Position numbers and translations under genes: made by a program
Notes under the pieces: model-generated
Told to the model about the DNA's origin: nothing
The model's input: the letters and a program-made list of their open reading frames with translations, nothing else
Databases searched by the model: none
NCBI GenBank assembly: GCA_903925985.1
Contig: CAIYHK010000349.1
Location: forward strand, 1-15,158
Source of the DNA: an uncultured Actinomycetes bacterium
GTDB taxonomy: Bacteria > Actinomycetota > Acidimicrobiia > Acidimicrobiales > Ilumatobacteraceae
DNA length: 15,158 nt
Direction: 5' to 3'
Shown: in pieces, positions 6,006 through 15,158 of the stretch
Position numbering within the stretch: the first letter of the stretch is position 1
Layout of the letters: each line of letters begins with the position of its first letter

Positions 6006-7121
6006 CTAGTCGTTCATTAAGAGGACACCGCGAATATTGCGGCCCTCTCGCATGTCTTCATAGCCCTTGTTCACATCATCCAATGGATAGGTACGAGTGA
6101 CCATATTGTCGAGATCCAATTTGCCGTTGCGGTACAGGTGAAGAAGCTTCGGAATGTCGGCGCGCGGGTTTGCTGAACCAAACAGTGAGCCAACGATTCG
6201 CTTTTCCATCAATGTGAGATCCAAGAGACTCACTGTTGCGGAAGTCTCCAGCGCGCGGTGAATGTTTGTTACGACTACCTTGCCGCGCTTTCCACACATT
6301 GCAAGAGCCGTGGCCAACAATGAACCTTCGCCGACACCCATAGCCATGATCACTACATTGGCCATCTGACCCCAGGTGATCTCGCCGATTAATCCAATCG
6401 CTTCCTCCATTGAGGCCACTGTGTGTGTTGCACCAAAAGCTGGAGCACGATCTCGTTTGTTATCAACTGGATCCACAGCAATGATGTGTCGAGCCCCAGC
6501 AATCTTTGCTCCTTGGATCGACGCCGCACCGATTCCACCGACACCAACGACAACCACCGTGTCGCCTGGTTGTACATCACCGGCATAGACAGCTGAGCCC
6601 CACCCAGTGACCACACCACAGCCGAGAAGGCACGCACGCTCGAGCGGAATGTCTTTCTCGATCTTGATGCACGACGCCTCATTGACCACGGTGTGGTTAG
6701 CGAATGTTCCCAGCATGCACATGAGACCGAGATCCTTGCCCTGAGCATGGTGACGGGATGTGTCATCTGCTGCCTGACGGCCACCAGCCATCTTGGCGCC
6801 CAAGTCGCAAAGGTTCTGGTGTCCAGTGCTGCACGCTATGCAACGACCGCACGCAGGAATGAAGCCAAACACCACGTGGTCTCCGGGTTCAAGCCATGAA
6901 ACATCCTTGCCAACGCGTTCAACGACACCGCCGCCCTCATGACCACCAATCATTGGCGGACCAAAGGGTAAGTCACCAGTGACGATGTGTTCATCGCTGT
7001 GGCACATACCAGAGGCGTGCAACTTCACAAGCACCTCGGTCGGGCCTGGCTCATCGAGTTCAATCTCCTCGACACTCCATGGTGCTCCGACTTCCCAGCA
7101 GATGGCGGCCTTGGTCTTCAT
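6006..7121 (-). CDS. NDMA-dependent (mycofactocin-associated) zinc alcohol dehydrogenase
   Basis: This medium-chain zinc alcohol dehydrogenase (371 aa) matches the group that keeps its NAD(H) tightly bound and passes electrons to an external acceptor: the artificial dye NDMA in vitro, mycofactocin in vivo. Likely catalytic zinc ligands are C40 (GMCHSDEH), H61/E62 (GGHEGGGVV) and C168 (LLGCGVVTGWG). Structural zinc cysteines are C91, C94, C97 and C105 (CGRCIAC...NLC). The Rossmann motif GVGGIG is at 193-198, followed by an acidic residue in AVDP that suits NAD. The start is ATG 7119-7121, preceded by a strong Shine-Dalgarno. It is divergent from mftA with 70 nt between them, which places it with the mycofactocin system as a likely client enzyme oxidising primary alcohols. 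The real substrate is not known. The TAG stop is 7 nt from the LCP stop (convergent). Confidence 0.93.
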   Translation of the reverse strand: MKTKAAICWEVGAPWSVEEIELDEPGPTEVLVKLHASGMCHSDEHIVTGDLPFGPPMIGGHEGGGVVERVGKDVSWLEPGDHVVFGFIPACGRCIACSTGHQNLCDLGAKMAGGRQAADDTSRHHAQGKDLGLMCMLGTFANHTVVNEASCIKIEKDIPLERACLLGCGVVTGWGSAVYAGDVQPGDTVVVVGVGGIGAASIQGAKIAGARHIIAVDPVDNKRDRAPAFGATHTVASMEEAIGLIGEITWGQMANVVIMAMGVGEGSLLATALAMCGKRGKVVVTNIHRALETSATVSLLDLTLMEKRIVGSLFGSANPRADIPKLLHLYRNGKLDLDNMVTRTYPLDDVNKGYEDMREGRNIRGVLLMND

Positions 7122-7191: not shown

Positions 7192-7302
7192 ATGGAAGAG
7201 CGCGACGAAAACACCGCCCAAGAGGCCACTGCTAGTGACATGGTGACCGAAGAACTGCTGGTCGAGGAGATCTCCATCGACGGCATGTGCGGCGTCTACT
7301 GA
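7192..7302 (+). CDS. mftA: Mycofactocin precursor peptide MftA
   Basis: A 36-residue ribosomal peptide, the substrate from which the redox cofactor mycofactocin is made. The C-terminus ELLVEEISIDGMCGVY carries the invariant IDGMCGVY core. MftC decarboxylates and cross-links the final Val-Tyr pair, and the peptidase MftE then releases the C-terminal dipeptide-derived part. The acidic N-terminal half is the leader recognised by MftB. The start is ATG 7192 (MEERDENTAQ). An internal ATG at 7240 would leave only 20 residues. The frame is open further upstream, but that part lies antisense to the dehydrogenase gene. mftB starts 29 nt downstream. Identification is from the core motif and the neighbours mftB and mftC; I consider it secure. 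Confidence 0.97.
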   Translation: MEERDENTAQEATASDMVTEELLVEEISIDGMCGVY

Positions 7303-7314
7303 GCCACTGTTGAC

Positions 7315-7321
7315 GGAAGGG
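7315..7321 (+). promoter_or_regulatory. Ribosome binding site of mftB
   Basis: GGAAGGG lies 10 nt before the mftB ATG, in the 29-nt gap after mftA. The spacing is slightly long but it is the only purine-rich site there. Confidence 0.5.
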
Positions 7322-7331
7322 CCGTTGCCCA

Positions 7332-7598
7332 ATGGCCATCGACCTTGACACTGCTTACGAACTCCACCCCCAGGTGGCGATTCGGCCGGAGCCCTTCGGT
7401 GCCCTTGCGTACCACTACGACAACCGCCGACTTGTGTTCATGAAACACAACGATGTTGTGACCGTTGTGAAATCACTTAGTCAAAGCCCATCACTCCGCG
7501 CGGCACTCGAAAGCTGCCAAGTGGAAGAAACCCGCTGGCCAGCATTCATCGCAGCGCTGGACAGTTTGCAGAGTTCGGAGATACTTCGTGTCCGTTGA
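7332..7598 (+). CDS. mftB: Mycofactocin biosynthesis chaperone MftB
   Basis: An 88-aa cytoplasmic protein of the RiPP recognition element type. It binds the MftA leader and presents the peptide to the radical SAM enzyme MftC. The sequence HPQVAIRPEPFGALAYHY followed by DNRRLVF is the family hallmark (residues 12-36), corresponding to the strands of the PqqD-like winged-helix fold. The C-terminal half forms the predicted helices. Its last 11 nt overlap the start of mftC, consistent with translational coupling and matched amounts of the two partners. Confidence 0.94.
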   Translation: MAIDLDTAYELHPQVAIRPEPFGALAYHYDNRRLVFMKHNDVVTVVKSLSQSPSLRAALESCQVEETRWPAFIAALDSLQSSEILRVR

Positions 7599-8721
7599 AT
7601 CATTGGTTACCCAACTCAAGTCTGGGCTTGATGCTCCGATCTGCCTCACATGGGAGCTCACATACGCCTGCAACTTGCAGTGCATCCACTGTCTCTCATC
7701 AAGTGGTCGTCGCGACCCACGTGAACTCTCAACCGAAGAAGCAAAGTCCGTGATTGACCAATTGCGTGACATGCAGGTCTTCTACGTAAACATCGGTGGT
7801 GGCGAGCCGATGGTACGCCGTGACTTCTTTGAGATCATTGAGTACTCCACCGCAAATGGAATCGGAGTCAAGTTCTCAACCAACGGTGCATACATTGACG
7901 CCGAAAATGCAAAGCGTCTCGCTGCAATGGATTATCTCGACATCCAAATCTCGCTTGACGGTACGGATGCCAAAACTAATGACGCCATTCGTGGAGAGGG
8001 CTCCTTTGATACTGCAATCGCTGCGATGAACAACCTGCGTGACGCGGGTTTTGGTGAGTTCAAGATCTCAGTTGTTGTGACACGTCACAATGTCTCACAA
8101 TTGGACGCGTTCAAAGAGCTTGCAGATTCCTATGGAGCACAACTACGCATCACTCGCTTGCGACCCGCCGGTCGTGGAGCCGACACTTGGCATGAACTCC
8201 ATCCAACTAATGCACAGCAACGAGAGATCTACGACTGGCTGATGGCTCATGGTGAGAATGTGCTGACTGGAGACTCGTTCTTTCATCTCAACGCACTCGG
8301 ACCCGCTTTGCCCGGCCTCAATATGTGTGGTGCTGGCAGAGTTGTATGCCTCATCGATCCAATTGGCGATGTGTATGCGTGCCCGTTCGTGATTCACGAT
8401 GAGTTCAAAGCCGGTTCAATCCGTGATGAAGGTGGCTTCGCGCGGATCTGGCGCGAGAGCACGCTGTTCACCGAACTACGCGAGCCCCAGAGCGCGGGCG
8501 CCTGTGCAAGTTGTGGCAGTTACGACGCATGCCAAGGCGGTTGCATGGCAGCAAAGTTCTTCACCGGAATACCACTCGATGGGCCAGATCCTGAGTGTGT
8601 GGGCGGCGACGGTGAGCATTTCCTTGCGAATGTAAGCCGTGAATCCGTGCCCACACCCACTCCGGACCATTCCAAGCTGGTCACGATCAGGCGCCGCCAA
8701 GAATCTCTGACAATCGGCTGA
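7588..8721 (+). CDS. mftC: Mycofactocin radical SAM maturase MftC
   Basis: A 377-aa radical SAM/SPASM enzyme. It first oxidatively decarboxylates the C-terminal Tyr of MftA and then forms a carbon-carbon bond to the preceding Val. The SAM-cluster motif CNLQCIHC is at C28, C32 and C35; GGGEP at 70-74 contacts SAM. The C-terminal SPASM region has the cysteines for auxiliary Fe-S clusters: C247, C254, C265, C306, C309, C315, C319 and C337 (for example CGAGRVVCLIDP, YACPF, CASCGSYDACQGGC). The start is GTG 7588, supported by GGAG at 7577-7580 and by DAPICLTWELTYACN at the N-terminal position expected for MftC. In mycobacteria mftD comes next; here an OYE-family gene follows after 4 nt. Confidence 0.96.
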   Translation: MSVESLVTQLKSGLDAPICLTWELTYACNLQCIHCLSSSGRRDPRELSTEEAKSVIDQLRDMQVFYVNIGGGEPMVRRDFFEIIEYSTANGIGVKFSTNGAYIDAENAKRLAAMDYLDIQISLDGTDAKTNDAIRGEGSFDTAIAAMNNLRDAGFGEFKISVVVTRHNVSQLDAFKELADSYGAQLRITRLRPAGRGADTWHELHPTNAQQREIYDWLMAHGENVLTGDSFFHLNALGPALPGLNMCGAGRVVCLIDPIGDVYACPFVIHDEFKAGSIRDEGGFARIWRESTLFTELREPQSAGACASCGSYDACQGGCMAAKFFTGIPLDGPDPECVGGDGEHFLANVSRESVPTPTPDHSKLVTIRRRQESLTIG

Positions 8722-8725
8722 GCTG

Positions 8726-10612
8726 ATGAAGTTGCTGCAAGAACTTCGTATTGGGCAAGTTGTTGCACGTAATCGCGTGATGTTTGGTCCAATTGTGACC
8801 AACCTTGGCAACGATGATCGGGAATTCACCGAATCACATCGCGCTTTCTATGAGGCTCGAGCAAAAGGTGGCGCTGGCGTCATCGTGTTTGAAGGCGCAA
8901 GTGTCCATGAAAGCGATTGGCCATACGAACGCGCACCACTTGCTTCAAAATGTGAGTCTTCATGGCAGATGCTTGCGAAAGCAGTGCACGCTCACGGCGC
9001 TTTGGCTATTGCCTCATTGGACCACGCCGGTGGTCAAGGCAGTTCCGCGTACAGCCAAGCGGTCATGCTTGCACCGAGCCGTGTTCCAGAAGTGAACTCT
9101 CGCGAAGTTCCAAAGTGGATGGAACAATCAGATATCGACTCTGTCGTTGCCGGTTTCGCCGCTGCTGCCGAATCGGCCGTTCGTGCCGGATGTGATGGTG
9201 TCGAATTAAATGCAGGTCAGCACAGTCTCATCCGACAGTTCATTTCAGGACTCACCAATCAACGCGACGATGCATACGGAGCAGACAAAATGCTCTTTGC
9301 ATCACAGGTGATCAACGCAGTTCGCACAAAAGTTGGTCAGGCAATCATCGGGGTGCGTCTTTCATGTGATGAACTCGCACCCTGGGCGGGCATTACACCA
9401 GAATCTGCGGCGGCCTTAGCGAGCACACTTGAGTCTCTTGGGGTTGACTACATCGTGGTAGTACGGGGATCGATTTTCTCAGTTGAAAAAACTCGACCCG
9501 ATTTTCACGAACCCGAGAACTTCAACTCAGATCTAGCCAACTCAATCTCTAGTGGGGTCAAGATCCCAGTTTTCGCTCAGGGTTCGATAGTTCGTGCCAA
9601 TGATGCTGAATCAATAGTTGCCAATGGGATAGCTGGGGTTGAGATGACCCGCGCACAACTTGCTGATCCAAACCTCGTAACGAAGATTGCGAGTGGGCAT
9701 ATCGAAGACATTCGTCCTTGCATTCTGTGCAACCAAACTTGTCAGGTGCGTGATGCTCGCAACCCAATCATCACTTGTGTTGCCGAACCCAGCACTGGGC
9801 ACGAACTAACTGACGATGATTGGTATACGCCCGTTAGCATGCGCAAGAAAGTTGCTGTAATCGGGGGTGGCGCAGCGGGCCTTGAGTCTGCACGTGTTGC
9901 AGCGATACGTGGACACGATGTCACCGTTTTTGACCGCGAATCGATTGGTGGTCTCGCATCAGTGAGTGGTCCTGGTGCACCGTTCGTGAAATGGTTAGTC
10001 GCCCAATGCTCGGCGCATGGTGTTCAATTCAAACCCGGAGTTGAGTTAAACGATGCCAACCTGGAATCGGTATTGAGTGCCTTCACCGAGGTCATTCAAG
10101 CAACAGGTGGGCAGCCGGGAGTGCGCCAATACAGAACTGATGTCGGGGCCAACGTGATCAATGTTGAAGACCTTCGAATGGGTAGGGTCGCTCTTCCCGC
10201 CAATGGTGAGATAGCAATCTTTGATCCAATCGGTGGTCCGATTGCCATCGCCTTGGCCGAGGAACTCGGTCCGCGAGCAATTCTGATTACACAAGACAAC
10301 ATCGCTGGCAATGAGCTATCTCGAAGTGGTGACCTTGCCCCTGCAAACTCACGCCTTGCACAAAAGGGAGTGCGCGTTGAGCGCCGTGCATTGCTGAGAA
10401 TGGTTACGGCAAGCAGTGTTCTGATCGAAAACAAGTTTTCTGGCGAGGAGCACACCGTTTCTTGCGTGGCTCTGGTGGATTGCGGGTTCCGCCTGCCCAC
10501 CGCGCCGATAAAGGGTGCCAGCCAAATGGTCGGTGATTGCGTTGCTCCACGGACAATTATGGAGTCAGTGCTTGAAGCCCGACGCGCCGCTGTTTCGATT
10601 GGAGTCAGGTGA
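8726..10612 (+). CDS. Mycofactocin-system FadH/OYE-family oxidoreductase (1)
   Basis: A 628-aa multidomain iron-sulfur flavoprotein. Residues 1-330 form the old yellow enzyme TIM barrel (FMN site). C332, C335, C339 and C351 (CILCNQTC...C) make the 4Fe-4S motif of the 2,4-dienoyl-CoA reductase/trimethylamine dehydrogenase group. From 376 on there is a FAD/NAD(P)-type domain with GGGAAG (380-385) and a closing VGDCVAPRTIMES. Known for the family: electrons move between the nucleotide domain, the Fe-S cluster and FMN. By hand alignment, S167 (NAGQHSLIRQF) takes the place of the canonical proton-donor Tyr, and the His pair of OYEs is Asn/Gln. The substrate is unknown. It starts 4 nt after mftC and overlaps plsY by 4 nt. 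The number 1 follows the naming of two OYE families found with mycofactocin genes and is less certain than the family itself. Confidence 0.87.
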   Translation: MKLLQELRIGQVVARNRVMFGPIVTNLGNDDREFTESHRAFYEARAKGGAGVIVFEGASVHESDWPYERAPLASKCESSWQMLAKAVHAHGALAIASLDHAGGQGSSAYSQAVMLAPSRVPEVNSREVPKWMEQSDIDSVVAGFAAAAESAVRAGCDGVELNAGQHSLIRQFISGLTNQRDDAYGADKMLFASQVINAVRTKVGQAIIGVRLSCDELAPWAGITPESAAALASTLESLGVDYIVVVRGSIFSVEKTRPDFHEPENFNSDLANSISSGVKIPVFAQGSIVRANDAESIVANGIAGVEMTRAQLADPNLVTKIASGHIEDIRPCILCNQTCQVRDARNPIITCVAEPSTGHELTDDDWYTPVSMRKKVAVIGGGAAGLESARVAAIRGHDVTVFDRESIGGLASVSGPGAPFVKWLVAQCSAHGVQFKPGVELNDANLESVLSAFTEVIQATGGQPGVRQYRTDVGANVINVEDLRMGRVALPANGEIAIFDPIGGPIAIALAEELGPRAILITQDNIAGNELSRSGDLAPANSRLAQKGVRVERRALLRMVTASSVLIENKFSGEEHTVSCVALVDCGFRLPTAPIKGASQMVGDCVAPRTIMESVLEARRAAVSIGVR

Positions 10613-11226
10613 CTCTCGCTGTCGGCGCTGAGTCATTGCCTTTGGCGCTAATCGCAATCGTTGCTGGCTATTCACTCGGTTTGTTTCCAAGCGCTGCCAT
10701 CGTGGCGCGACGATCCGGAGTAAACGTTCACGCAGAAGGCTCAGGCAACCCAGGAGCTTCAAACATCACTCGCCTACTCGGATGGAAAGCCGGTGTCGTG
10801 GTATTCGCCATGGATGGCGCCAAAGGAATCGCTGCCGCTGGAGTTGGCGCCTTGGCGGATGGCCGGCTGGGAGCATATATCTGCGGTTTTGCAGCGGTGG
10901 TCGGCCACATTTTTCCGCTTACCAATCGCTTAAAAGGTGGCAAAGGTGTGGCCACTGGCGCTGGGGTCGTGTTAGCCGTGGCACCGCTCGTGTCAGTAAT
11001 TGTGATCGCAACCTGGTTTGTCATCTCACGCACGACTGGCAAATCTTCAGTTGCGTCCATAGTCGCCGTGCTACTTGTTCCATTGGGAATCGGGCTCCGT
11101 GGTGGCACGGCCTGGGAGATCATTGGCGTAGTTGCGGTTTGCACACTCATCATTGCCCGCCACGCTGAGAATATTCGTCGCCTTTTGGCGGGGGCCGAAC
11201 ATGGACTCAAGCACGACAAGTCCTAA
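10609..11226 (+). CDS. plsY: PlsY-type glycerol-3-phosphate acyltransferase
   Basis: A membrane protein of 205 aa. PlsY moves an acyl group from acyl-phosphate to glycerol-3-phosphate, the first acylation of phospholipid synthesis. All three family motifs are visible: SGNPGASN (45-52), GHIFPLTNRLKGGKGVATG (99-117) and ARHAENIRRLLAGAE near the C-terminus. Hydrophobic segments lie at about 10-33, 61-80, 88-103, 115-140 and 150-182. The start is GTG 10609 within a GTGA overlap with the upstream stop, with GGAG at 10601-10604. It sits between two OYE genes in the mycofactocin operon, an unexpected place for a housekeeping lipid gene. It may be the cell's only PlsY or a dedicated acyltransferase; the sequence alone cannot decide. 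Confidence 0.9.
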   Translation: MTLAVGAESLPLALIAIVAGYSLGLFPSAAIVARRSGVNVHAEGSGNPGASNITRLLGWKAGVVVFAMDGAKGIAAAGVGALADGRLGAYICGFAAVVGHIFPLTNRLKGGKGVATGAGVVLAVAPLVSVIVIATWFVISRTTGKSSVASIVAVLLVPLGIGLRGGTAWEIIGVVAVCTLIIARHAENIRRLLAGAEHGLKHDKS

Positions 11227-11235
11227 CCTTTAGGC

Positions 11236-13191
11236 GTGGCGTACAAGTATCTGTGGACCCCGCTCCAACTCGGGCCGGTAACTGCACGCAACCGGATCGT
11301 CTTCTCTGCGCACCTCACCAACTATGCGCGCAATGGCAAGCCAACTGATCAGCACGCTGCATATTACGAAGCGCGCGCTGCGGGTGGTGCTGGCCTCATC
11401 ATCACTGAAGAACACAGCACTCACCCAACCGACTGGCCTTACGAAAAACTCATCCACGGCTTTCACCGTGACGTAATTCCTGGCTACCGCAAGATCACCT
11501 CGGCAGTCCACAAACACGGTGTACCAATTTTCGCCCAGATCAATCACAACGGTGGTCAAGCATCGAGCATGTTCAGTCGGTTGCCCGTTTGGGCTCCGAG
11601 TCCAGTCGCCGATCCACTATTCCGTGAGGTTGCCAAGGGAATTACTCATGCAGAAATTGAAGAAGTAATTGCAGGGTATGCGTTAGTCGCCGGACACTGT
11701 GCCGAAGGTGGATTTGATGGCATTGAATTGCAATGCAGTCACTCATCAATCGTTCGTGGCTTTCTATCACCAGCAACCAACTTCCGAACAGATGAATATG
11801 GTGGCTCTCTAGAAAATCGTGCTCGTATTCTCATTGAAATTGTTGCCGCAGTTCGACGCGTGATTGGCCCCACGATGGCACTTGGCGTGAGACTTTGTGG
11901 TGACGAACTCATTGAAGGCGGCACCACCATCGATGAAGCCGTCGAAGTAGCGAAATTGGTTGAAGCGACAGGACGCGTTGACTACATCAACACTTCAATT
12001 GGTGTAGCCACCGCAAGCTTGTTCATGATCGAAGCTTCAATGCATATTCCTCCGGGCTATGCAATGTTCATCCCTTCCGCAATTCGTAAAGCAGTTGATC
12101 TTCCCGTGGTTGGTGTTGGGCGATTCAAGGATCCACTTCAGGCCGAGCGCGCACTAGCCGAAGGTCAGTGCGATCTGGTCGGTGTAGTCCGCGGCCAAAT
12201 TGCCGATCCGGACTTCGCCGCGAAATCGCGTGCAGGTGCTACCGACGACATTCGGCTTTGCTTGTCGTGCAACCAAGAGTGTGTCGGCAGAATGGGCCTC
12301 AATCGATGGTTGGGCTGCATTGAGAATCCCCGCACGGGACGCGAGAGCGAGTGGGAATCCAACGGCCACGTGCGGTTAACGACAAAACCAAAAAATGTGA
12401 TGGTTGTCGGAGCCGGCCCAGCAGGCCTACAGGCCGCAATTGCCGCAGCTCGTAATGGTCACAGCGTCCATGTTTACGAACAAAAGGATGCGCCCGGCGG
12501 ACAAGTTCGAATTGCCGCATCGGTTCCGAACCGTGCTGAGTTTGGCGACATCATTCGCAATCAAATGAATGAATGCGAGAGGCTCGGCGTGCAATTCACA
12601 TTCGGTGTTGGTGTCTGGCCCGGCCTAGTTTCGGAAAAACGCCCCGACCATGTGATTGTTGCTACTGGATCAGAGCCCCAACGCCCGTGGTGGGTCGCCG
12701 AAGACTGCCAAATCGGTGTCGCGGACTGCCGCGAAGTAATTGAAGGCGGTGCTGAGCCCTTCGGTGATGTTGTGGTGATTGATGAACTTGGATTCCACCA
12801 CGCAACCTCTGTGGCTGAATTGCTCGCCGACCGTGGCTGCAATGTTGAAGTCATTACACCTGGCATGGTTGTTGGACAAGACCTTGGCATCACTCTTGAT
12901 ATGGAGAACTGGTGGATTCGGGCAATTGGAAAAGGCATCGTACAAAGCACTGATCTCGTGCCGATGAACCTCGCTGGTCGCGAACTCACTTTGCTTCATC
13001 ACCCAACCGGAGAAAACAAAACACGTACACCTGACTGGGTGGTACTCGCTACACATGCCTCTCCCGTTGAATGGCTGTATCACGAATTGCAGACACAAGG
13101 AGTGAGTGTCGAGCGAGTCGGTGATTGTGTAGCACCACGCCGCGCACACGCCGCTGTTGTCGATGGCGAGCGAGCCGGTTCACGGTTGTAG
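11236..13191 (+). CDS. Mycofactocin-system FadH/OYE-family oxidoreductase (2)
   Basis: A 651-aa paralogue of the OYE gene upstream of plsY, with the same architecture. The TIM barrel spans about 1-340 with RTDEYGGSLENRAR (184-197), typical of OYE/trimethylamine dehydrogenase barrels. The 4Fe-4S cysteines are C342, C345, C349 and C361 (CLSCNQEC...C). The nucleotide-binding domain starts at about 387 with GAGPAG (392-397) and APGGQ. The C-terminus again has VGDCVAPRR. S171 (CSHSSIVRGF) replaces the canonical catalytic Tyr by hand alignment, while H169 matches the second OYE substrate-binding His. It probably oxidises or reduces a cofactor or small substrate linked to mycofactocin; this is inference. 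The start is GTG 11236, 9 nt after plsY; no clear Shine-Dalgarno is seen. dedA follows 7 nt downstream. Confidence 0.88.
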   Translation: MAYKYLWTPLQLGPVTARNRIVFSAHLTNYARNGKPTDQHAAYYEARAAGGAGLIITEEHSTHPTDWPYEKLIHGFHRDVIPGYRKITSAVHKHGVPIFAQINHNGGQASSMFSRLPVWAPSPVADPLFREVAKGITHAEIEEVIAGYALVAGHCAEGGFDGIELQCSHSSIVRGFLSPATNFRTDEYGGSLENRARILIEIVAAVRRVIGPTMALGVRLCGDELIEGGTTIDEAVEVAKLVEATGRVDYINTSIGVATASLFMIEASMHIPPGYAMFIPSAIRKAVDLPVVGVGRFKDPLQAERALAEGQCDLVGVVRGQIADPDFAAKSRAGATDDIRLCLSCNQECVGRMGLNRWLGCIENPRTGRESEWESNGHVRLTTKPKNVMVVGAGPAGLQAAIAAARNGHSVHVYEQKDAPGGQVRIAASVPNRAEFGDIIRNQMNECERLGVQFTFGVGVWPGLVSEKRPDHVIVATGSEPQRPWWVAEDCQIGVADCREVIEGGAEPFGDVVVIDELGFHHATSVAELLADRGCNVEVITPGMVVGQDLGITLDMENWWIRAIGKGIVQSTDLVPMNLAGRELTLLHHPTGENKTRTPDWVVLATHASPVEWLYHELQTQGVSVERVGDCVAPRRAHAAVVDGERAGSRL

Positions 13192-13198
13192 GTCTTTG

Positions 13199-13825
13199 AT
13201 GCTCGCACTTGTTAATGACTTCTTCGATTGGCTGAAGGAGTTTTCATCCGATCCAACCTTTTACTTGATTATTTTTTCAATCGCGTTATTAGACGCTGTT
13301 TTCCCAGTTGTACCAAGTGAGACGATGGTGATCATCGGTGGTGTTGCCGCTGGTGCAGGTGGCGCAGAAGATGGCAAGCTGTTCCTACCACTCGTGATTG
13401 CTGCAGGCGCATGTGGAGCCTTCTCCGGCGACAACATCGCCTATCTCATTGGTCGCTCATTTAGTGAACGCATCCACCGTCGCTACGACCGCACTGAAAA
13501 GGGGCGGCAACGCCTTCAATGGGCGCATAACCAGATTGAACAACGCGGTGGCTTACTACTCATCACTGGGCGCTTCATTCCCGGGGGGCGTACGATTCTC
13601 ACGATCAGTTGTGGCACAACCGAACAAGAACACCGTTGGTTTGCGCGTTGGATTGGTGTTGCCTCGGTGATTTGGGCAAGTTATGCCGCAACACTTGGGT
13701 ACTTCGGTGGCAAAGCCTTTGAGGACAACCACACACTTGCGTTTATCGTCGCTTTCCTGACCGCCATATCGATAACCGTGATTATCGAGGTCATTAGATA
13801 CATCCGCCACAACCGACCCCGTTGA
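13199..13825 (+). CDS. DedA-family (SNARE-associated) membrane protein
   Basis: A polytopic inner-membrane protein of 208 aa. Some DedA proteins flip undecaprenyl phosphate or phospholipids across the membrane and need the proton motive force. Diagnostic elements are the re-entrant FPVVPSETMVIIGG (35-48), SGDNIAYLIGR (76-86) and GGLLLITGRFIPGGRT (117-132) with the essential-type Arg residues R125 and R131. TM helices are predicted at about 20-38, 42-54, 62-86, 150-170 and 179-201. The start is ATG 13199, 7 nt after the OYE stop; an upstream in-frame start would overlap that gene by 35 nt. The link with mycofactocin is only positional. Confidence 0.87.
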   Translation: MLALVNDFFDWLKEFSSDPTFYLIIFSIALLDAVFPVVPSETMVIIGGVAAGAGGAEDGKLFLPLVIAAGACGAFSGDNIAYLIGRSFSERIHRRYDRTEKGRQRLQWAHNQIEQRGGLLLITGRFIPGGRTILTISCGTTEQEHRWFARWIGVASVIWASYAATLGYFGGKAFEDNHTLAFIVAFLTAISITVIIEVIRYIRHNRPR

Positions 13826-13830
13826 CCTCG

Positions 13831-13843
13831 GGCATTTCGTGCC
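13831..13843 (+). other. Weak hairpin between dedA and etfA
   Basis: GGCA and TGCC pair around TTTCG, extendable by one G-T pair. The stem is short and no T-run follows, so it is not a convincing terminator. It could weakly attenuate transcription or mean nothing. Confidence 0.2.
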
Positions 13844-13851
13844 TTGCCTAC

Positions 13852-13857
13852 TAGCGT
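13852..13857 (+). promoter_or_regulatory. Candidate -10 element before etfA
   Basis: TAGCGT matches TANNNT and lies 6 nt before the etfA GTG, the spacing of a leaderless start. The dedA-etfA gap of 38 nt is the largest in the plus-strand run after mftA-mftB, so a second promoter here is reasonable. A TTGACC at 13822-13827 is too far upstream (24-nt spacer) to be its -35 box. Confidence 0.3.
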
Positions 13858-13863
13858 TGAGGT

Positions 13864-14784
13864 GTGTTCGTAGTTGTACCTGTTCGGGGTGGAAGGTTGC
13901 CCGCTGGAGGCGCTGAAGTCGCCTCTGAATATGGCCAGGGTGGCATTCTGTTAATTGGGGAAGGTACCCAAGCCGCGGCAAATGAGCTTGACGGTTTGGT
14001 TCAAGAAGTCCATTGCGCGGAGGTAGGAAAATTTCGCCCCGACGCATGGAGTGCTGCTCTCCACCAGCACATCGGCGACGAGATCATCGTTTTGCCTGGC
14101 TGTCCAGATGGTCGCGACCTTGCCCCGCGGATAGCGGCTGCGAGTGGATGCGCCTACTTCGGCTCAGTAGCAGAGATCAAGAACCACGATGGTGAACTCG
14201 AAATCCAAATGGCGCGTTGGGGTGGGCTTGCAATGGAGCTCGTTCGAACATCTGGTCATTGTGTGGTGAGTGTGATGCCAGGACTCCACTCCCCCGTACC
14301 GGTAGATGGTTCACTACGGATAAAGGCGATTGAGTTACAACTCGGTGATGGAAATGATGTCGCGTTTGTTGACGAACGCGAGCCTGACGCAGCAACGATG
14401 GATCTTGCCGAGGCAAAAAGAATTTTTGGAGGCGGTGCAGGACTCCTCGACGAAGCAGTGTTTGGCCAACTCGGAAACATCGCCGCCGAACTTGGAGCCT
14501 CAATGGGAGCCACACGTGTGGTGACAGACCGAGGCTGGGTAGGTCACTCACGCCAAATTGGTACCACCGGCGTTGTAGTTGATCCAGATTTGTACATTGC
14601 CTTTGGAGTTTCTGGTGCTGTTCAACACACCAGTGGACTTGGTCAACCCGATCATGTGATCAGTGTGAATACCGATCCACATTGTCCGATGATGCAAATG
14701 TCTGACCTTGCAATTGTTTGTGATGCCAATGCTGTAGTTGCAGAGCTGGAACAACGGCTCGGCAGAAACGCTGGCGCAGCATGA
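13864..14784 (+). CDS. etfA: Electron transfer flavoprotein alpha subunit (mycofactocin-associated type)
   Basis: ETF alpha carries FAD and, with ETF beta, takes electrons from dehydrogenases and gives them to a quinone-linked flavoprotein. The 306-aa protein has the alpha-type N-terminal domain (GRDLAPRIAAASG, 83-95) and the conserved C-terminal FAD domain. That domain reads GASMGATRVVTDRGW (211-225), QIGTTGVVVDPDLYIAFGVS (231-250), GAVQH and ISVNTDPHCPMMQMSD. It is alpha rather than beta because beta lacks this FAD domain. The start is GTG 13864 (MFVVVPVRGG); no Shine-Dalgarno is seen but a possible -10 element lies close by. No etfB gene is adjacent in the window. Its stop overlaps the next ATG by 4 nt (ATGA), tying it to the FixC-like gene, its expected redox partner. 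Confidence 0.9.
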   Translation: MFVVVPVRGGRLPAGGAEVASEYGQGGILLIGEGTQAAANELDGLVQEVHCAEVGKFRPDAWSAALHQHIGDEIIVLPGCPDGRDLAPRIAAASGCAYFGSVAEIKNHDGELEIQMARWGGLAMELVRTSGHCVVSVMPGLHSPVPVDGSLRIKAIELQLGDGNDVAFVDEREPDAATMDLAEAKRIFGGGAGLLDEAVFGQLGNIAAELGASMGATRVVTDRGWVGHSRQIGTTGVVVDPDLYIAFGVSGAVQHTSGLGQPDHVISVNTDPHCPMMQMSDLAIVCDANAVVAELEQRLGRNAGAA

Positions 14785-15158
14785 GTACGGACTTCGACGC
14801 CATCGTTGTCGGTGCTGGCCCGGCGGGTTCGTGTGCGGCAATTGTTCTCGCGCGTGCAGGCAAACGGGTGGCGCTGATTGAACGCGGACCATTTGCTGGA
14901 TCAAAAAATATGTACGGCGGAGTTGTGTACCCGCGCATTCTTGATGAGTTGATCCCGAATTGGTGGGAAGAGGCACCGATTCAGCGCTGGGTCACTCGGC
15001 GCTCAACAATGTTGCTCACAGACACACAGGCACTGACGATTGACTTTCGATCACAAAATTGGGGGGCGCCGCCGTACAACGGCGCAACCGCATACCGACC
15101 AGACTTTGATGCATGGCTTGCTGATCATGCAGTCGCAGCTGGCGCAGTACTGGTTACC
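14781..15158 (+). CDS. FixC/ETF-quinone oxidoreductase-like flavoprotein, partial at right edge
   Basis: Only the first 126 residues are in the window. The N-terminus FDAIVVGAGPAGSCAAIVLA (5-24) is an FAD-binding Rossmann motif with GAGPAG at 11-16 and an acidic E34 for the ribose. GSKNMYGGVVYPRILDELIP (40-59) is the hallmark of the FixC/ETF-dehydrogenase group, which moves electrons from ETF to quinone. YRPDFDAWLADHA (105-117) is the next conserved block of the flavoprotein family. It starts in an ATGA overlap with etfA. Whether the missing C-terminus includes the membrane-binding region, or a FixX-like ferredoxin gene follows, cannot be seen. Confidence 0.88.
   Translation, partial: MSTDFDAIVVGAGPAGSCAAIVLARAGKRVALIERGPFAGSKNMYGGVVYPRILDELIPNWWEEAPIQRWVTRRSTMLLTDTQALTIDFRSQNWGAPPYNGATAYRPDFDAWLADHAVAAGAVLVT

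Follow-up and report, generated by a model that had tools for sequence, protein, structure and literature searches.

The 15,158-nucleotide stretch analysed here (the window) is one whole contig (C349) of an uncultured Ilumatobacteraceae bacterium, whose draft genome comprises 1.69 Mb in 389 contigs and is 90% complete. It carries a mycofactocin (mft) locus in which mftABC is followed by genes for two old yellow enzymes (OYE1 and OYE2), the electron transfer flavoprotein (ETF) subunit EtfA and a FixC-like flavoprotein. Across actinobacteria that encode the maturase MftC, OYE1 and MftD nearly exclude each other. We tentatively propose that this is a mycofactocin system of a second type, with an OYE1-OYE2-EtfA-FixC-FixX-EtfB module that would stand in for MftD and oxidise the cofactor precursor into the quinone pool.

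The exclusion was observed in two sets of genomes and followed in a third. The relatives sample comprised 100 genomes, 61 of one family (the source genome included) and 39 of the order. The phylum sample comprised 396 actinobacterial genomes, 53 of them with mftC; 14 of these were already among the relatives, leaving 39 additional ones. Another 40 genomes were chosen by OYE1 from the best 80 of 264 loci, at least two of which duplicate genomes already counted (identical coordinates). Genes were called present at curated NCBIfam cut-offs, and absence of the MftD family was judged at E ≤ 1e-30. Among the 98 mftC-positive genomes of the relatives and phylum samples, 59 have mftD, 38 have OYE1, none has both, and one (G276) has neither. 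Specifically, mftC scored over cut-off in 59 of the 100 relatives, of which 24 have mftD (23 over cut-off, plus a 225-residue contig-end fragment in G030). The remaining 35 have OYE1, none of them with mftD. Of these OYE1 genes, 28 are over cut-off and seven are fragments, split genes or contig-edge copies (G014, G018, G026, G035, G043, G044 and G058), scored present because these frames adjoin mftC or lie in the syntenic block and match OYE1 best. No MftD-family match was found at E ≤ 1e-30 in 24 of these 35 OYE-type relatives. In the phylum sample, mftD is over cut-off in 35 of the 39 additional genomes; OYE1 is over cut-off in two of the other four (G369 and G140) and present in a third (G405) as a 556-bit contig-edge piece adjoining mftC.

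The genes around this exchange are shared to different degrees. Across 93 loci of the two types, 88 have an identical MftA core; the pattern used missed the other five. Of the 59 mftC-positive relatives, 50 have MftE over cut-off (internal stops flagged in some matches were taken as terminal stops); the nine without it, one mftD-type and eight OYE-type, are G002, G028, G044 and G058 of genus g2 together with G018, G020, G035, G038 and G090. Draft assembly may account for these gaps, or a different peptidase may release the core. By eye, no constant partner stands beside mftD in 14 mftD-type genomes, and mftE adjoins it in three.

The module moves as a unit. Of the 35 OYE-type relatives, 33 carry mycofactocin-type etfA over cut-off (with fragments in G024 and none in G058), versus none of the 24 mftD-type ones. 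Within genus g2, G028 carries mftABC-OYE1-plsY-OYE2-dedA-etfA-fixC-fixX-etfB-mftF, and G002 carries mftABC-plsY-dedA-mftF at the same valS-lytR site, with none of the six module genes and with mftD on another contig; in both, mftE over cut-off is lacking. An MftC tree was drawn with 93 rows, 47 of them mftD-type (23 of the 35 phylum genomes among them) and 46 OYE-type (8 named loci, and G276 included); on it the type changes 13 times against a shuffled mean of 31, with at least four changes on well-supported (starred) branches. The module has thus been exchanged as a block, repeatedly, about 13 times, a rough count, as this quick tree leaves 32 forks open and contains several long rows.

The swap also recurs at a distance. 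Saccharopolyspora elongata, S. oryzae and S. hirsuta, as well as a Streptosporangiales genome (locus L235), carry mftABC-OYE1-OYE2-etfA-fixC-etfB together with mftE and mftF; none of these four genomes has mftD over cut-off. The nearest named relative of the window OYE1 among the best 80 of 264 loci is that of Ilumatobacteraceae bacterium CPBay_Sum0_6G08_119, at 95% identity. The first-pass annotation of this DNA had read the genes after mftABC as a redox and membrane extension of the locus. Its redox genes OYE1, OYE2, etfA and fixC, as well as etfB, indeed recur with mftABC in distant actinobacteria, and OYE1 is over cut-off in seven of the 396 phylum genomes, all seven with mftC. It did not pick out mftD as the single gene replaced. 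The recurrence suggests a different way of making or recycling mycofactocin in these bacteria.

In the window, the locus consists of the following genes:

6006..7121, minus strand: NDMA-dependent (nicotinoprotein) zinc alcohol dehydrogenase, divergent from mftA (TIGR03989, 545 bits, cut-off 440)
7192..7302, plus strand: MftA precursor peptide, core ending SIDGMCGVY (PF23709; TIGR03969, 50 bits, cut-off 25)
7332..7598, plus strand: MftB chaperone (TIGR03967, 100 bits, cut-off 33)
7588..8721, plus strand: MftC radical SAM/SPASM maturase (TIGR03962, 617 bits, cut-off 265)
8726..10612, plus strand: OYE1 (TIGR03996, 654 bits, cut-off 627.9)
10609..11226, plus strand: PlsY, acyl-phosphate:glycerol-3-phosphate acyltransferase (PF02660, 139 bits, cut-off 24; TIGR00023, 134.8 bits, slightly below its cut-off of 137.2)
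11236..13191, plus strand: OYE2, the second three-domain OYE/FadH-type flavoenzyme (TIGR03997, 962 bits, cut-off 793)
13157..13825, plus strand: DedA/VTT membrane protein (PF09335, VTT domain, 65 bits, cut-off 34), its real start probably near 13199
13864..14784, plus strand: mycofactocin-type EtfA, mft_etfA (NF038209, 329 bits, cut-off 240)
14781..15158 (contig end), plus strand: N-terminal 126 amino acids of a FixC-like flavoprotein of the ETF:quinone oxidoreductase type (NF007450/NF007542, about 108 bits, below the full-length cut-offs)

The order mftABC-OYE1-plsY-OYE2-dedA-etfA-fixC, described earlier from the letters alone, thus holds at every place, with MftA, MftB, MftC, OYE1, OYE2 and EtfA over NCBIfam cut-offs. 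So does the tight packing, in which junctions overlap or leave gaps of less than 10 nucleotides, except for 29 nucleotides between mftA and mftB and 38 between dedA and etfA. The divergent alcohol dehydrogenase, which that description omitted, occupies the same position in many relatives. Since it is the mycofactocin-associated NDMA-dependent enzyme, the locus starts to the left of 7192; the available text of Haft 2011 lists this family with mycofactocin genomes (PMC3023750).

The operon continues on another contig of the same genome, C189, which overlaps the window end by 196 bp at 96.4% identity, an imperfect match such as a mixed-strain assembly gives. C189 carries the rest of fixC, followed by genes for a FixX-like ferredoxin (PRK15449, 46.7 bits of a cut-off of 166), mft_etfB (200.9 bits, cut-off 200), the MftE peptidase (TIGR03964, 263.6 bits, cut-off 172, in a 222-amino-acid open frame) and MftF, which is over cut-off. 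FixC and FixX were recognised through subfamily matches below curated cut-offs only. With EtfA, EtfB, FixC and FixX genes all present, the set of the FixABCX or ETF:quinone oxidoreductase type is complete. In the same-genus genome G001, dedA-etfA-fixC, a 99-codon frame, etfB, mftE and mftF lie on one contig. The earlier observation that no mftD-mftE-mftF follows mftABC is therefore right within the window; mftE and mftF sit on C189, and mftD alone is missing. A location of mftD elsewhere in the source genome was considered and rejected, as a genome-wide search for TIGR03966 gave no match at E ≤ 1e-30 in this 90% complete assembly. MftD is the sole classical mft gene not found there.

OYE1 and OYE2 are three-domain flavin mononucleotide (FMN)/4Fe-4S proteins. 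Their relatives of solved structure comprise two reductases, NCR and DCR, and three amine dehydrogenases, namely histamine dehydrogenase, trimethylamine dehydrogenase and HisD. OYE1 is built of an FMN barrel, a CxxCxxxCx11C 4Fe-4S motif and dinucleotide-type domains, and the 4Fe-4S cysteines are invariant in alignments of ten rows (OYE1) and nine rows (OYE2). The histidine in the GWHE stretch has a catalytic role in 2,4-dienoyl-CoA reductase (FadH/DCR). At this stretch of DCR and NCR, OYE2 reads GVAT, and in OYE1 the histidine position is occupied by Val or Ile (two alignments), so that neither OYE retains the WHE. The third domain of 2,4-dienoyl-CoA reductase bears an NAD(P)H-binding motif; in OYE1 and OYE2 this domain has no GxGxxG. 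The OYE2 stretch here aligns without gaps to histamine dehydrogenase and HisD, and with one gap to NCR. The structure prediction of OYE1 is of moderate quality (mean pLDDT 77.2), and a fold search with it, which matched NCR, DCR, histamine dehydrogenase and trimethylamine dehydrogenase, did not separate reductases from amine dehydrogenases; that of OYE2 is too poor for use (mean pLDDT 65.9, pTM 0.49).

From this gene content, the exclusion and the motifs we infer a substrate, a direction of electron flow, an acceptor and an assignment of the OYEs to steps. MftD uses O2. In the known pathway, AHDP is made by MftC and MftE and deaminated to premycofactocin by MftD, according to the available text of PMC11778925. 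Given the ordinary MftA core of OYE-type clusters, AHDP should form as usual. OYE1, or OYE1 with OYE2, would then behave like the amine-dehydrogenase branch of its fold and convert the AHDP amine to an imine, which would hydrolyse to the keto-amide premycofactocin. Electrons would leave through the 4Fe-4S cluster to EtfAB, FixCX and the quinone pool, instead of going to O2 as with MftD. The second OYE may draw on reduced mycofactocin and deliver its electrons to the same branch; a double role of the module, in the MftD step and in recycling, is possible. ETF is the electron acceptor of trimethylamine dehydrogenase, and the trimethylamine, histamine and 6-HPON amine dehydrogenases share the three-domain FMN/4Fe-4S fold. 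Pno, a histamine dehydrogenase relative in the nicotine cluster of Agrobacterium S33, is encoded in one cluster with etfAB and an ETF-ubiquinone oxidoreductase, according to PMC5500553. We propose this route for AHDP because of these amine-dehydrogenase relatives, the Pno cluster and the AHDP expected without MftD. Somewhat more guardedly still, actinobacteria may repeatedly trade the O2-using MftD for a six-gene OYE-ETF-FixCX amine-dehydrogenase route to quinone, possibly also recycling reduced cofactor via one shared respiratory exit.

Several findings weigh against the replacement of MftD by an amine-oxidising module. The best match is a reductase (NCR, DCR), for OYE1 by sequence and fold and for OYE2 by sequence, with the amine dehydrogenases close behind. 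Both OYEs lack the covalent-FMN cysteine of trimethylamine dehydrogenase (6-S-cysteinyl FMN, Cys30): the aligned positions are not Cys, and HisD (6l6j) likewise lacks the cysteine in its alignment. The third-domain argument is weak, because the reductase NCR itself shows GGNEIS and no GxGxxG there, and the DCR alignment stops short. An independent-pairs test on the MftC tree found only four supported pairs; all four point the expected way (p 0.125). Sub-cut-off OYE matches in mftD-type genomes (up to 306 bits, G139) were left out of the OYE1 counts. Two relatives, G048 and G051, have OYE1 with mftC undetected, which also qualifies the co-occurrence. G004 (77% complete; locus L254, G004:C253) has OYE2-etfA-fixC-etfB with mftC and OYE1 undetected, and is either an incomplete assembly or a remnant. 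Among the genomes chosen by OYE1, one of 40 (G478) also has mftD over cut-off, and the fourth mftD-less phylum genome, G276, has no clear OYE1, its single OYE best matching OYE2 and adjoining a divergent mftC (335 bits). The mftD transcript goes up under hypoxia in Mycobacterium tuberculosis, as the available text of PMC8406134 reports, so that MftD is not plainly an aerobic form, which speaks against a simple aerobic/anaerobic split.

Two of these genomes deserve a description of their own. G478 is the metagenome bin Dino_bin48 (loci L213, L251 and L253), the sole genome seen with OYE1 and mftD both over cut-off; its mftD contig of 6.7 kb shows no visible mft neighbour, and the double is either a mixed bin or true. 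The G276 locus (L155, G276:C40) holds the OYE2-like gene with fixC-, etfB- and mftF-like genes in a genome with no mftD match, and is perhaps a third, minimal mycofactocin type.

Other readings of the module were weighed against the replacement of MftD. It could be a re-oxidation branch only, in which one OYE oxidises reduced mycofactocin and EtfAB-FixCX passes the electrons to quinone, replacing MftG, with the MftD step carried out by an unrelated enzyme. ETF with FixCX is a known kind of quinone entry, and MftG is over cut-off in just one of the 100 relatives (G014, OYE-type) and not in the source genome; MftG as the electron exit of this group was rejected on this count. About 25% of MftC-encoding genomes lack MftG, with the substitute left open, in the available text of PMC11778925. 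However, MftG is absent from the mftD-type genomes as well (0 of 24), so that the module tracks the loss of mftD rather than that of mftG, and an exclusive role in re-oxidation would leave the absence of mftD unexplained. We consider this reading unlikely, though a serious contender, and for the reason just given rank the replacement of MftD above pure recycling. A less probable account is that OYE-type bacteria make a different mycofactocin, with the AHDP amine kept or otherwise changed and the OYEs making or using a variant redox centre. The lack of MftD-family matches in 24 of the 35 OYE-type relatives, the two conserved OYEs, which suggest more than one step, and the OYE-type majority (8 of 9) among the mftC-positive relatives without mftE over cut-off would all fit. 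But the MftA core does not differ between the two types, and both come with MftF and with NDMA-type alcohol dehydrogenases; therefore the product likely serves the same partners. A chance placement of an unrelated catabolic set of OYE and ETF genes beside mft is highly improbable: OYE/FadH enzymes are often catabolic, but in the phylum sample OYE1 occurs over cut-off with mftC only, and its presence is nearly opposite to that of mftD.

The first-pass annotation had favoured a wider cofactor-to-membrane system with PlsY and DedA as working parts, of which the redox half stands, while the membrane half fails the check that the annotation itself had set. Within the family, plsY lies at most 6 kb after mftC in 41 of the 51 mftC-positive members (22 of 31 OYE-type and 19 of 20 mftD-type, some contigs ending too early to judge). 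This tight spacing is real, suggesting a single transcript and making co-transcription possible. The window PlsY is the only PlsY match found in the source genome, and no match to PlsY was obtained in four of the ten mftC-less family members (G004, G048, G051 and G059; 77, 94, 73 and 87% complete). The other six (G003, G009, G029, G031, G045 and G047), however, retain cysS-valS-lytR-plsY-dedA. Outside the family, plsY lies within this distance in none of eight mftC-positive genomes, three of which (G078, G081 and G090) have no PlsY match at all, and neither plsY nor dedA was matched in the three Saccharopolyspora loci and L235. A working role of PlsY and DedA in the system is thus very unlikely. 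As the six mft-less relatives keep both genes beside valS-lytR, we regard plsY and dedA as probably housekeeping bystanders, interleaved with the operon in the window's family and outside the redox module. The earlier description was right in its observation and in its redox interpretation, which is sharpened here, and most likely wrong in its membrane part. Several mft-less genomes of the order have another radical SAM gene (weak mftC-profile matches of 17-187) some 2-4 kb away from plsY, a site that is perhaps an older home of plsY.

Compared with the classical mftABCDEF system of mycobacteria, the locus shares MftA, MftB, MftC, MftE, MftF and the NDMA-dependent alcohol dehydrogenase, but has no mftD, carries OYE1, OYE2, etfA, fixC, fixX and etfB instead, and follows another gene order. 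That OYE-type genes are known companions of mycofactocin is borne out: the OYE1, OYE2 and etfA families are already named mycofactocin-associated in NCBIfam, and all four families of this kind (TIGR03996, TIGR03997, NF038209 and, for etfB, TIGR04503) are matched over curated cut-offs here. The association is thus already named. No account of the exclusion with MftD, the block swap or a mechanism appeared in titles and abstract openings of the mycofactocin literature, a coverage mostly without subscription papers, and the main text of Haft 2011 (PMC3023750) uses none of the terms "OYE", "old yellow" and "electron transfer flavoprotein". In its available text, the same paper notes that the MftD family is not universal among mycofactocin species, so that inferring its role was difficult. 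The redox centre of mycofactocin is made by MftD, and the near-perfect exclusion names a candidate stand-in. The module is also a candidate electron exit for genomes without MftG, a question left open in the available text of PMC11778925. It would resemble MftG, the GMC mycofactocinol dehydrogenase, in passing electrons from the mycofactocin system to respiration, but MftG is an unrelated protein. If the proposal is true, synthesis and recycling of the cofactor would share a single respiratory exit. The Saccharopolyspora strains, with the same cluster and mftD not over cut-off, make this testable in named strains.

The remaining genes of the window, from left to right, are a major facilitator superfamily (MFS)-type fragment, cysS (minus strand), valS (plus) and a LytR-like gene (plus), followed by the alcohol dehydrogenase (minus) and the mft operon; the labels cysS, valS, LytR and MFS were read by eye off translations. 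At 2-727 on the minus strand, two same-frame pieces resemble one contig-end MFS transporter gene with a stop near 476 between them, which may reflect gene breakage, strain variation or an error. Elsewhere, in locus L078 (9584-10498, G022), a 305-amino-acid frame sits between plsY and OYE2 and matches neither Pfam (E ≤ 1e-5) nor NCBIfam (E ≤ 1e-8). In locus L083 (18283-19959, G028), an alanine-racemase-N-type protein and an HGSNAT-type membrane acyltransferase are encoded after mftF.

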